Shown here one piece after another: positions 37,500-40,836 of a stretch of 64,000 nucleotides of DNA; the first letter of the stretch is position 1; each line of letters opens with the position of its first letter. The notes under the pieces were generated by a model, which saw only the letters and a program-made list of their open reading frames with translations, was not told the DNA's origin and did not search any database. This stretch comes from Halobellus inordinatus. Lineage in GTDB: Archaea > Halobacteriota > Halobacteria > Halobacteriales > Haloferacaceae. The DNA lies in NCBI RefSeq assembly GCF_024464655.1, contig NZ_JANHAV010000001.1, positions 372,001 to 436,000 of the forward strand. Direction: 5' to 3'. The position numbers and the translations under genes are program-made.

Positions 37500-37733
37500 A
37501 TGAGTAATCCGGACACTGGTCCCGACCGGGAGTTCGACGAGGCCCGAACCGATCAGGACGCTGCGCCGCCTGCGACCGACGTCGATGCCGACGGGCTCGG
37601 CGACGGACGGCTCTCGCTCCGTGCGCCGATCGAACCCGGCGATCCCGACGCGGAGAACGCCCTGTTCGTGGTGGCTGGCGCGCTCGGTACGGTCGCGCTC
37701 CTCGCGTCAGCGATCGTCCCGGGCGTACTCTGA
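37500..37733 (+). CDS. Small single-helix membrane protein
   Basis: A 77-residue protein (MSNPDTGPDREFDE) with a 50-residue acidic, disordered N terminus and one C-terminal membrane helix (ALFVVAGALGTVALLASAIVPG). The haloarchaeal codon use and acidic bias argue it is real. It lies 47 bp after pyk on the same strand. Function unknown. Confidence 0.65.
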   Translation: MSNPDTGPDREFDEARTDQDAAPPATDVDADGLGDGRLSLRAPIEPGDPDAENALFVVAGALGTVALLASAIVPGVL

Positions 37734-37852: not shown

Positions 37853-39676
37853 ATGTCTCACGCCCATCCCTACCTCGCTCTCGCTATCGCCCTCTCCCTC
37901 CTCGTCGGCGGTGCGACGCCCGTTTCGGGGTTCGCCCCTGCGTCGACGGCGCCGGGAGTGGCCCACAGCGCCGGGACCGAGACGATCGGCGAGGACAGCC
38001 ACAGCACCTCTCCGCACGCACTCGCAGCCGCCGATCGCGCGCCGCAACAGACCGACGACGCCTCGGCGTCGTTCCCTGGCGGCAACGTGACCGTCACCCG
38101 CGGCGACGAGGTGACGTTCTCGGTCTCACACTCCGACCCCGCGAACGTGACGATCGGCGGCCCGGAGTACGGCTTTCACCTCACCGTCGCGCTCGGCGGC
38201 AGCGGCACGTCCGAAGTAACTCTCGACACACGCCAGACGACTGCCGCCGATCCAGCCGTCTTCGTCGAAGGCGGATCCGCGACGCTGCACTCCGCACCGC
38301 TCGATGAGCCCATCGAGCCCGAAGACTACCTTCTCCGCGTCTCTATCGACGGCGTCGAGCGCGACATCGGGACGCTCACCGTCGACCCACGGGGCGAAAC
38401 GACAGCGGAATCGTACCGCGCGCCGGGGGCGTTCGAGCCCTCGGAGTACGTCGACGGCGGCGAAGACGGCGACGCCAACGTCGGGCCCCTGGAGACGACG
38501 ATGAGCGCCGGAACCGACCTCGCACGCGGCGATTACGCCGTCGTCCGCTTCGAGGAGAGCGGCCTGGAGTCGGCGCTGAACACGAGCGACCTCACCGGTG
38601 CCGCGGCGGCTAACGGGCTCAAAGTGAACTTCACGCAGACGACGCCCGGGCCGAACCAGGAGCCGCGGGAGTACGTCGCGACGGCCTCGGCGAACGTCTC
38701 CGTGCTGCCGAGTCTCGCGAACGACGAGATCTACGTGCTCTGGGACACCAGCGAGGTTCCGATCGGGAATCTGGAGAAGCGCAATCGCTACCGCGCGGCC
38801 CTGACGCTGACCGACGAGAGCGGCCTCGCCGACTCGCCGACGACGATCGCGTCGACGCCGTTCCATCTCAGTTCGCAGTCGGTGTCGCTGTCGCCGGACA
38901 ACGACTCGGTGCATTACCCCTGGGAGAACAGTTCGTTCGCCGTCTCCGGGACGACGAACCGCGCGCCGAACACGACGCTGGAAGTCCGCCTCCGGTCCTC
39001 GGATCCGAACGCGTTCCTGCAGCTGCGCGATGCCACAGTCGGCCCCGACGGGGACTTCGAGGCGTCGTTCGACCTCTCGTCGGTCTCTCGGGGGACGAAC
39101 GCGACGCTTTGGGTCCGCAATCACTTCTTGCAGACCGCACAGGACGTCTACTTGGTCGCACCGGATCCGAGCGTCCGCATCGAAGACCAAACGGCGAACG
39201 GAACGACGCTACGGATCGCGAGCGCCGAAGTCCCCGCGGGCGGTTTCGTTCGCTTGGAAGACGCCGACGGGTCGTCGGTCGGACGGAGCGACTACCTCGC
39301 GCCCGGCGAGCATACGAACGTGACAGCGGAGTTGGGGACGCCGCTGTTCGAGGCCCAACAGATCCGCGCCGAACTGGTCCGCGCCGGCGAGGAGCAGTCC
39401 TACGACCCCGACGCGGCGGCCTACACCGCGAACGACGCCGTCGTCAACGACACGGCGCGGATCGAGTTCCCGCCGGCACCGACCGAGACGAGCACACCGA
39501 CGCGGACCGCGACGGCGACGGCGACGTCCACGGCGACGCCGTACCCCGTCGTCACGCGGACGCCGCTGGCACCCGCTGGTGCCTCGCAGTCGAGTCTCCC
39601 GCTGTCGCCGGGAGTCGCGGTCGCCGCGCTGCTCGGCGCCGGTGCACTGCTCGCACGCCGAGGTGGGTCGTCGTGA
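37853..39676 (+). CDS. Large secreted or S-layer-like surface protein with C-terminal anchor
   Basis: A 607-residue protein with a Sec-type signal (ALAIALSLLVGGATPVSGFA), a long beta-rich ectodomain with many N-glycosylation sequons (NVT, NTS, NAT), a Thr/Ala/Pro linker near 545-575 and a final hydrophobic segment PGVAVAALLGAGALLARRGG. This is the layout of haloarchaeal surface glycoproteins that are lipid-anchored or held by a C-terminal helix. Its TGA overlaps the GTG of the next gene by 4 bp, so the two are coupled. No enzymatic motif is seen. Confidence 0.75.
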   Translation: MSHAHPYLALAIALSLLVGGATPVSGFAPASTAPGVAHSAGTETIGEDSHSTSPHALAAADRAPQQTDDASASFPGGNVTVTRGDEVTFSVSHSDPANVTIGGPEYGFHLTVALGGSGTSEVTLDTRQTTAADPAVFVEGGSATLHSAPLDEPIEPEDYLLRVSIDGVERDIGTLTVDPRGETTAESYRAPGAFEPSEYVDGGEDGDANVGPLETTMSAGTDLARGDYAVVRFEESGLESALNTSDLTGAAAANGLKVNFTQTTPGPNQEPREYVATASANVSVLPSLANDEIYVLWDTSEVPIGNLEKRNRYRAALTLTDESGLADSPTTIASTPFHLSSQSVSLSPDNDSVHYPWENSSFAVSGTTNRAPNTTLEVRLRSSDPNAFLQLRDATVGPDGDFEASFDLSSVSRGTNATLWVRNHFLQTAQDVYLVAPDPSVRIEDQTANGTTLRIASAEVPAGGFVRLEDADGSSVGRSDYLAPGEHTNVTAELGTPLFEAQQIRAELVRAGEEQSYDPDAAAYTANDAVVNDTARIEFPPAPTETSTPTRTATATATSTATPYPVVTRTPLAPAGASQSSLPLSPGVAVAALLGAGALLARRGGSS

Positions 39677-40836
39677 TCCCCGAACTGGAGCCCGAGGATT
39701 TCGTCGCGTTCCTCGCGGACCTCTGGCGTGAGCGGGGCTGGGAGATCTCCGTCAAAGAGCGCGCCGACGAGACGCGGTTCGTGATCGGCGAGCGGGGCGA
39801 CGGCAAGCGCGGCGTCATTTACGCCTTCCCGACGACGACGGCGACGGTCACCGAACGGCACCTCAAGCAGTTCGTCGCCTTCTGTCGGAAACGCAGCATC
39901 GACGTGGCCGTCGTCGCGACGCAGGGCGCGTTCGCGGACGGCGCCAAGAAGGTGGCCGCCCAGCGCAGCGTCCACCTCCTCGACCGCGCGACGCTCGCCG
40001 AGACAGTCGAGGAGGGCGGCTTCGAGGACGTCCTGAAGCAGTACACCGAGACGAGCGGCCTCGAAGCAGCCGTCGAACGGCTCCAGGAACTGGGGGTGCC
40101 GGTCCCCGTGTCCGTCGTCGACCGCGTCCCCGACTTCGGTGAGTCGCTCGCGGCGATCCGCGCGAAGCTCGACCGCGGCGACGGGGACGACAGCGACGAC
40201 GCGGATGCATCGGGGGCGCAGTCCGGTTCTGATCCCGATTCGAGCGGCGACCCCGGGGCCGACGCCGGAGTCACGGACCGGATCCGCGCGCTCTCCTCGC
40301 GCTCGCTACCGGCGACTGTCATCCCGATCGTCCTCGTCGTCGCGTTCGTGCTCGGGGCTGCGCTGGGGCCGGCGCTCGGCCTCGGGGGTCCCTTCGCCTC
40401 CGGCGGCGACGACGGCCTCGACGTCTCGGCGGTCTCGACGGCGAGCGCGAACGCGACGGCGGACGTGCGCTGGAATGCGAAGACGACGCAGGCGCTCACG
40501 GTGAACGGGACCACCTACGACGCCCCCGACGAACAGACGTTCCTCCTAGTTCGGATGAACGTGACCAACCGGGCCGACACTCCGACGCAGTTCGCACAGT
40601 CGAAGTTGGCCGTCGAGGTCGCGGGCGAGCGCTACGCGCATCAACCGCTCGACGGCGTGACCGGCTTCCCCTCCGCCGGGCTGTTCGAACCTGGGGAGTC
40701 GCGGGAGGTGTGGATGGTCTTCAGCGTTCCCGCCGACGGAGAGAGCGCGACGCTCTTGATGACCGGCGAACTGAACGTTCGCTTCACCCGCGATACCACG
40801 ATCACGCCCGAGGCGACCGTCCCGGAGCGCGAATAG
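39673..40836 (+). CDS. Restriction-endonuclease-fold, transmembrane and DUF4352-like fusion protein
   Basis: A 387-residue protein from a GTG start overlapping the upstream stop (GTGA). Residues 1-115 resemble the Mrr-type nuclease fold (FVAFLADLWRERGWEIS, RFVIGERGDGKRGVIYAFP, HLKQFVAFCRKRSIDVAVVATQGAF), but the usual catalytic Glu-x-Lys is not visible. An acidic linker precedes one membrane helix at about 213-237. The C-terminal 130 residues (FLLVRMNVTNRADTPTQF, GLFEPGESREVWMVFSVP) look like a DUF4352 beta-sandwich outside the cell. A transmembrane signalling role is inferred from the topology. Confidence 0.65.
   Translation: MIPELEPEDFVAFLADLWRERGWEISVKERADETRFVIGERGDGKRGVIYAFPTTTATVTERHLKQFVAFCRKRSIDVAVVATQGAFADGAKKVAAQRSVHLLDRATLAETVEEGGFEDVLKQYTETSGLEAAVERLQELGVPVPVSVVDRVPDFGESLAAIRAKLDRGDGDDSDDADASGAQSGSDPDSSGDPGADAGVTDRIRALSSRSLPATVIPIVLVVAFVLGAALGPALGLGGPFASGGDDGLDVSAVSTASANATADVRWNAKTTQALTVNGTTYDAPDEQTFLLVRMNVTNRADTPTQFAQSKLAVEVAGERYAHQPLDGVTGFPSAGLFEPGESREVWMVFSVPADGESATLLMTGELNVRFTRDTTITPEATVPERE

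Follow-up and report, generated by a model that had tools for sequence, protein, structure and literature searches.

A gene pair in the window analysed here (64,000 nt of the Halobellus inordinatus genome) is shared by members of three haloarchaeal families. On balance we lean towards the view that the membrane protein encoded by its second gene is a pseudonuclease adaptor or sensor acting across the cell envelope, with the surface protein encoded by the first as a dependent partner, and is not an enzyme. The upstream gene encodes a secreted Ig-like surface protein that is made of S-layer-type domains (BGTF, DUF7827 and DUF7282) and anchored in the membrane at its C-terminus. The product of the downstream gene (the fusion) is predicted to be a single-pass protein in which one helix joins an inactivated Mrr/PD-(D/E)XK domain inside the cell to an external DUF4352 domain with many glycosylation sites. 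On the outside the DUF4352 domain may dock the surface protein or a different component of the S-layer, and the inactivated nuclease fold may serve as a cytosolic binding or sensing module; together they would link the two sides of the envelope as an adaptor or sensor. Neither a nuclease nor a defence system could be recognised in the pair. The features of the pair are listed in Table 1.

Table 1. Features of the gene pair (positions are those of the window)
Feature	Position	Strand	Evidence
Secreted surface glycoprotein, 607 aa	37853..39676	+	ORF and translation, domain matches, AlphaFold model
BGTF surface domain, surface glycoprotein aa 363-424	38939..39124	+	NF045517, E=1.3e-16
DUF7282 domain, surface glycoprotein aa 439-537	39167..39463	+	PF23951, E=1.3e-16, 61.2 bits
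C-terminal membrane helix, surface glycoprotein aa 586-602	39608..39658	+	Model helix, hydrophobicity, C-termini of 46 partners
Putative Shine-Dalgarno-like GAGGTG, 7 nt upstream of the GTG start of the fusion gene	39660..39665	+	Sequence; inference
GTGA stop/start codon overlap of both genes	39673..39676	+	Sequence; likewise in other Halobellus copies having the surface gene
Single-pass membrane fusion, 387 aa, GTG start: dead Mrr-like domain, helix and DUF4352	39673..40836	+	Translation, Pfam, model
Cytosolic PD-(D/E)XK-fold domain without catalytic residues, fusion aa 1-125	39673..40047	+	Pfam, model, fold matches, catalytic columns
Acidic disordered linker, fast-evolving, fusion aa 126-209	40048..40299	+	pLDDT <50 from aa 169; dN/dS 0.60
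Transmembrane helix, predicted N-in/C-out, fusion aa 214-232	40312..40368	+	Hydrophobicity, K/R and sequon asymmetry
External DUF4352 Ig-like domain with N-glycosylation sequons, fusion aa 250-375	40420..40797	+	Pfam, sequons, model matches, member profiles

The fusion is present in a single copy in the H. inordinatus genome. A preliminary description of this DNA had read the second protein as an Mrr-like fold joined to one membrane helix and a DUF4352-like sandwich, and Pfam, hydrophobicity and the structural model all agree with that reading. Residues 4–111 match Mrr_cat (PF04471) with E=2e-10 (41.2 bits, cut-off 21), and residues 277–363 match DUF4352 (PF11611) with E=4e-5 at 24.2 bits, just below the cut-off of 25.9. 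Across the aligned fusion members the Mrr_cat profile was matched by 17 of 17 and the DUF4352 profile by 15 of 17 at E<=0.01 (best 1.2e-10). Searches by sequence returned no significant PDB homologue for the fusion or the surface protein. In the AlphaFold model of the fusion the N- and C-domains are confident and the linker is of low confidence. The model of the N-domain, for which structure prediction had been proposed as a check, has the PD-(D/E)XK fold, and no alternative fold was seen. Its matches include the PD-(D/E)XK proteins AF1548 (Z 13.2), AspBHI (Z 10.7), EndoMS (Z 10.4) and MspJI (Z 10.2), and further the non-catalytic RPB5 (Z ~9) and the cytosolic domain of YqgP (Z 8.2). As the non-catalytic members of this fold are protein-binding or metal-sensing modules, a nucleic-acid-type fold need not bind nucleic acid.

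A protein search covering 293 genomes of the order first revealed the full fusion, and a profile search placed it in 59 of the 293, including one (G190) where it is decayed. Near-full-length copies number 57 and come from three haloarchaeal families, labelled f1 (which includes Halobellus and Halogeometricum), f12 and f17, where they lie in three unrelated gene contexts. In f1 the pair is flanked by pyruvate kinase and an NfeD/SPFH pair. In f12 it adjoins a gene whose product starts M(T/A)RSFYSHIKEAW, which we take to be ribosomal protein L15e, and in f17 it is flanked by a J-domain membrane protein and an EF-Tu-like GTPase. The location of the fusion is constant within each family. The surface gene lies directly upstream on the same strand in 47 of the 59 fusion-search matches examined; two of these matches are not members of the fusion family (an Mrr protein with intact catalytic residues, L050, and a 173-aa protein resembling the DUF4352 half), and some of the remaining matches are truncated. 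Conservation of the pair in other haloarchaea, which had been suggested as a check, was found, with the two genes adjacent in 48 genomes and in all three contexts. A phylum-wide search did not find the fusion outside the haloarchaea, returning only single-domain matches there. No protease or secretion gene is common to the three contexts and no defence genes were recognised in them. Most f1 loci also keep, upstream of the pair (37509–37733 in the window), a gene for a small membrane protein with DUF7312.

A plasmid or mobile origin was considered and rejected. The fusion of the window had no plasmid match, and the f12 and f17 copies had only single-domain plasmid matches, with <60% identity and covering less than half of the query. 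A plasmid of Natrinema sp. DC36 (L129:2770-3501) does encode a 243-aa DUF4352 protein resembling the outer half of an f17 fusion (30.7% over 155 aa), and this plasmid protein had no full fusion match.

The lack of a visible ExK catalytic pair, already noted in the preliminary description, holds across the aligned columns. The catalytic Asp and Gln/Glu are each kept in 0 of the 57 fusion copies and the Lys in one, whereas in 19 related haloarchaeal Mrr proteins the same positions are kept in 18, 19 and 18, respectively. No replacement set of acidic and lysine residues is conserved among the 57 members, and an active nuclease was ruled out on the basis of these columns. PADLOC returned only the Mrr part of ZorD for the fusion (E=0.004) and nothing for the surface protein, and a known anti-phage system was likewise rejected. 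An anti-virus effector, in which the surface triggers a nuclease that is active through a catalytic site at a new position, would fit membership of the Mrr family by sequence and the weak ZorD match. We consider it extremely unlikely given the loss of all three catalytic positions in essentially every copy without a conserved substitute, the fixed chromosomal place in each family and the lack of recognised defence genes around it. As a separate observation, five soluble haloarchaeal Mrr proteins (L105, L106, L110, L115 and L116) have intact catalytic residues together with a C-terminal beta-sandwich-like domain; in L105, the one scanned, this domain had no Pfam match.

In the inner-domain tree, which was built from few alignment columns, a branch with SH-aLRT 99 separates the inactive group from the other proteins. 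One loss is enough to account for this, and the disappearance of the nuclease site appears consistent with a single event. Among seven Halobellus copies dN/dS was lowest in the Mrr-like domain (0.20), followed by the DUF4352 domain (0.30) and the linker (0.60) and, on these sequence comparisons, the inactivated domain is held under purifying selection. Its near-invariant positions (F10, F13, W18, W23, G44, G47, T83, G85, L102 and D104) look like the core of the fold, being mostly hydrophobic or glycine with the addition of T83 and D104. No basic residue of the inner domain is conserved across the 57 members, which speaks against a retained nucleic-acid surface, as far as residue conservation can indicate. 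The same observation bears on the idea that the inactivated domain has kept the ability to bind DNA, or binds RNA polymerase, and thereby ties the nucleoid or transcription to the envelope. Such a tether would agree with the fold matches to DNA-binding nucleases and to the RPB5 jaw, and with RecC, whose inactive PD-(D/E)XK domain can keep DNA contacts (PMC1185551). With no conserved basic residue, and near-invariant residues that are those expected of a fold core, we regard it as very unlikely.

The orientation of the fusion in the membrane was examined using N-glycosylation sequons and charged residues. The sequence on the N-side of the helix, 9659 residues in total, has only eight sequons, and that on the C-side, 8962 residues, has 296. 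Asn itself is more frequent on the C-side (484 against 120 on the N-side), and composition therefore explains about a fourfold difference, not the fortyfold one observed. The mean number of K/R residues is 1.37 in the 15 residues before the helix and 0.07 after it. Together, the sequon and K/R asymmetries indicate a predicted N-in/C-out topology, in agreement with the outside DUF4352-like domain and inside nuclease-like domain proposed earlier. The model of the C-domain matches sandwiches of the DUF4352 type (YxkC, Z 9.3; YcdA, Z 8.9; YjhA, Z 8.0) and, judging from its sequons, this outer domain is probably decorated with sugars.

The surface glycoprotein consists of a signal peptide, a chain of Ig-like domains, a Thr-rich stalk and a C-terminal helix followed by an Arg tail, and it shares BGTF, DUF7827 and DUF7282 with S-layer-type proteins. 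BGTF (NF045517) scored 60.5 bits in the partner from the window (cut-off 40) and was matched by 21 of 21 aligned partner members at E<=0.01. Against the S-layer glycoprotein model NF041335 the partner scored 59.2 bits, below the cut-off of 1100. Its AlphaFold model is a chain of beta-sandwich domains, and the many Ig-like chains that Foldseek matched to it include 7ptp, an S-layer protein of haloarchaea. The partner is probably glycosylated. At the C-terminus, the partner in the window scored 14.5 against a cut-off of 24.5 for PGF-CTERM and has PLSP instead of PGF. When 46 partner C-termini were compared the PGF motif was found in 23, all from f17, and the f1 and f12 partners were without it. 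The f1 and f12 proteins have a tripartite C-terminus (39590–39676 in the window), mostly with a PLSP-like motif at the PGF position. This is possibly a variant sorting signal, or it may reflect the loss of archaeosortase processing.

Orthologues of the surface protein (at least 319 bits) were detected in 49 of the 293 genomes, and the fusion was present in all 49 and adjacent in 48, a count that was taken by hand from match listings, is partly circular because the surface-protein profile was trained on adjacent copies, and covers genomes that are phylogenetically non-independent. A genome with a fragment of the surface gene at a contig end (G176) was excluded from the 49. In the one genome of the 49 without adjacency (G041) the two genes share a contig, at a distance of about 90 kb. 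No orthologue at this score was found in the 234 genomes without the fusion, and the best-scoring protein that is not a partner, an S-layer-type protein of 865 aa, reached 305 bits. In the other direction, nine of the 59 fusion genomes (G012, G017, G039, G064, G074, G101, G155, G185 and G275) have no partner orthologue at or above 319 bits. The G185 contig is just 3 kb and the neighbour was possibly lost from the assembly, while G017 and G074 have more distant relatives of the surface protein elsewhere in the genome. In H. rarus the surface gene is missing beside the fusion. No remnant of the surface gene was found beside ten unpaired fusions, nor in H. rarus, and the paired or unpaired state changed at least four times on the tree. 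In the 7.3 Mb genome G190 (L124), both genes are decayed: two internal stops interrupt the surface gene, and the fusion is reduced to a fragment that contains one stop.

As the surface protein was never found without the fusion, while the fusion occurs without the surface protein in nine genomes, the dependence looks asymmetric: the surface protein seems to need the fusion, and the fusion can persist alone. The partner's absence from those nine genomes, and its lack of adjacency in H. rarus, imply that a complex of the two is not obligatory. There was also no measurable speed-up of DUF4352 divergence after partner loss, which gives no support for tight binding. Asymmetry of this kind would also be expected if the fusion were a dedicated assembly or quality-control factor, its DUF4352 domain holding the secreted protein as a client and its cytosolic fold bringing in a membrane protease or the secretion machinery, as in YqgP-MgtE-FtsH. 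In YqgP a restriction-endonuclease-fold domain does sit on the cytosolic side of a protease adaptor (PMC7231995). We nevertheless think this role somewhat unlikely, as the repeated changes between the paired and unpaired states mean that the fusion persists without this client, and the three gene contexts share no conserved protease or secretion gene.

The preliminary description had also proposed that the two genes are translationally coupled. The overlap on which this was based is present (39673–39676) and recurs in the Halobellus copies, among them those of five named species or strains; the exception is H. rarus, which lacks the surface gene there. Coupling through this overlap is confined to Halobellus and does not stand as a general feature of the pair, because in Halogeometricum limi and other genera the genes are separated by a gap, mostly of 34–160 nt. 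In f12 and f17 this gap often holds a TATA-like T-rich element, and the downstream gene is therefore likely to have its own promoter, as predicted from the element. A scan for sigma-70 promoters and terminators, which is unsuited to archaea, found nothing. Separate promoters outside Halobellus, together with a location so fixed within each family that linkage can be due to vertical inheritance, would suit two envelope proteins that are simply co-inherited side by side and do no joint work. This explanation is unlikely in our view, given that order and strand are identical in three unrelated contexts, that the 234 genomes without the fusion have no partner orthologue, and that both genes decayed together in G190.

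The last 90 nt before the fusion gene were also scanned for small reading frames. An ATG-started mini-ORF of 7–40 codons that ends between -8 and +3 nt of the fusion start was present for 40 of 53 fusion genes, compared with 35 of 532 controls, and for 48 of 57 after correction of the starts. It often overlaps the fusion start as TGATG, ATGA or GTGA (L043, L044, L047, L048, L067-L076 and others). A translated leader was considered as its explanation and set aside: the TATA-like box in f17 appears to put the start of transcription inside the mini-ORF, and the Shine-Dalgarno GGTGA can itself provide the stop.

Beyond the adaptor or sensor role that we favour, the pair could represent a class of archaeal transmembrane receptor, in which the S-layer-associated glycoprotein and the Ig-like ectodomain sense the cell surface and signal via the helix to the inactivated domain, which binds a cytosolic effector. 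We put this forward tentatively, as possible rather than probable. In archaea that have an S-layer, the transfer of information or force from the cell surface into the cytoplasm is poorly understood, and a conserved single-pass protein with a surface partner and an inner pseudoenzyme makes this question testable. Inactivated nuclease folds and inner domains of the YqgP type were already known. The fusion is a well-supported case, consistent with one origin, in which a restriction-endonuclease fold has lost catalysis and been kept under selection on the cytoplasmic side of a membrane protein. Genes for the fusion probably carry restriction-endonuclease annotations, as the plasmid Mrr relatives do, and this would distort counts of restriction genes.

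No description of this domain combination was found in the literature searched, and among papers on DUF4352, judged by title, none was found on haloarchaea. Each part of the pair nevertheless resembles something known. The inner domain is that of Mrr-type restriction endonucleases (PF04471; soluble and membrane-anchored in haloarchaea) both by Pfam score and by fold, and close Mrr sequence relatives occur in the same order. The fusion differs from them in having lost the catalytic D, Q/E and K and in forming a separate group in the tree. The outer domain has the fold of the DUF4352-type extracellular proteins of Firmicutes (YcdA, YjhA and YxkC), but the matched structures have no fused nuclease-fold domain. 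For YxkC, the deposited entry 9a4z is, by its title, a cross-linking model with DacA. The partner resembles haloarchaeal S-layer glycoproteins and BGTF/DUF7282 surface proteins in carrying BGTF, DUF7827 and DUF7282, to which the partners of one family add PGF-CTERM, but it is shorter (mostly 436–617 aa) than the S-layer-type protein used for comparison (865 aa).

Precedents for inactivated PD-(D/E)XK domains are provided by NA-iREase1, RecC and RPB5; the NA-iREase1 profile was matched, weakly, by 1 of 17 fusion members. To our knowledge, these domains belong to cytosolic or nuclear complexes and in no case form the cytoplasmic part of a single-pass membrane protein. YqgP, a rhomboid protease of Bacillus subtilis, comes nearer. 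The domain on its cytosolic side adopts a restriction-endonuclease-type fold and senses Mn2+/Zn2+, and the protein also acts as an FtsH adaptor that presents MgtE to FtsH (PMC7231995). This N-terminal domain is described only from YqgP orthologues of Bacilli (PMC7231995), and descriptions of YqgP mention neither a DUF4352 domain nor a surface-protein partner. The fusion, with one membrane helix and no rhomboid match, is also unlike YqgP in that the latter is a polytopic protease. What the two have in common is a restriction-endonuclease fold as the N-terminal cytosolic module of a membrane protein (PDB 6r0j; Z 8.2 over 114 residues, a value common to many folds of this class), and the cytosolic domain of YqgP is the best precedent, and the closest working analogue, for the inner half of the fusion.
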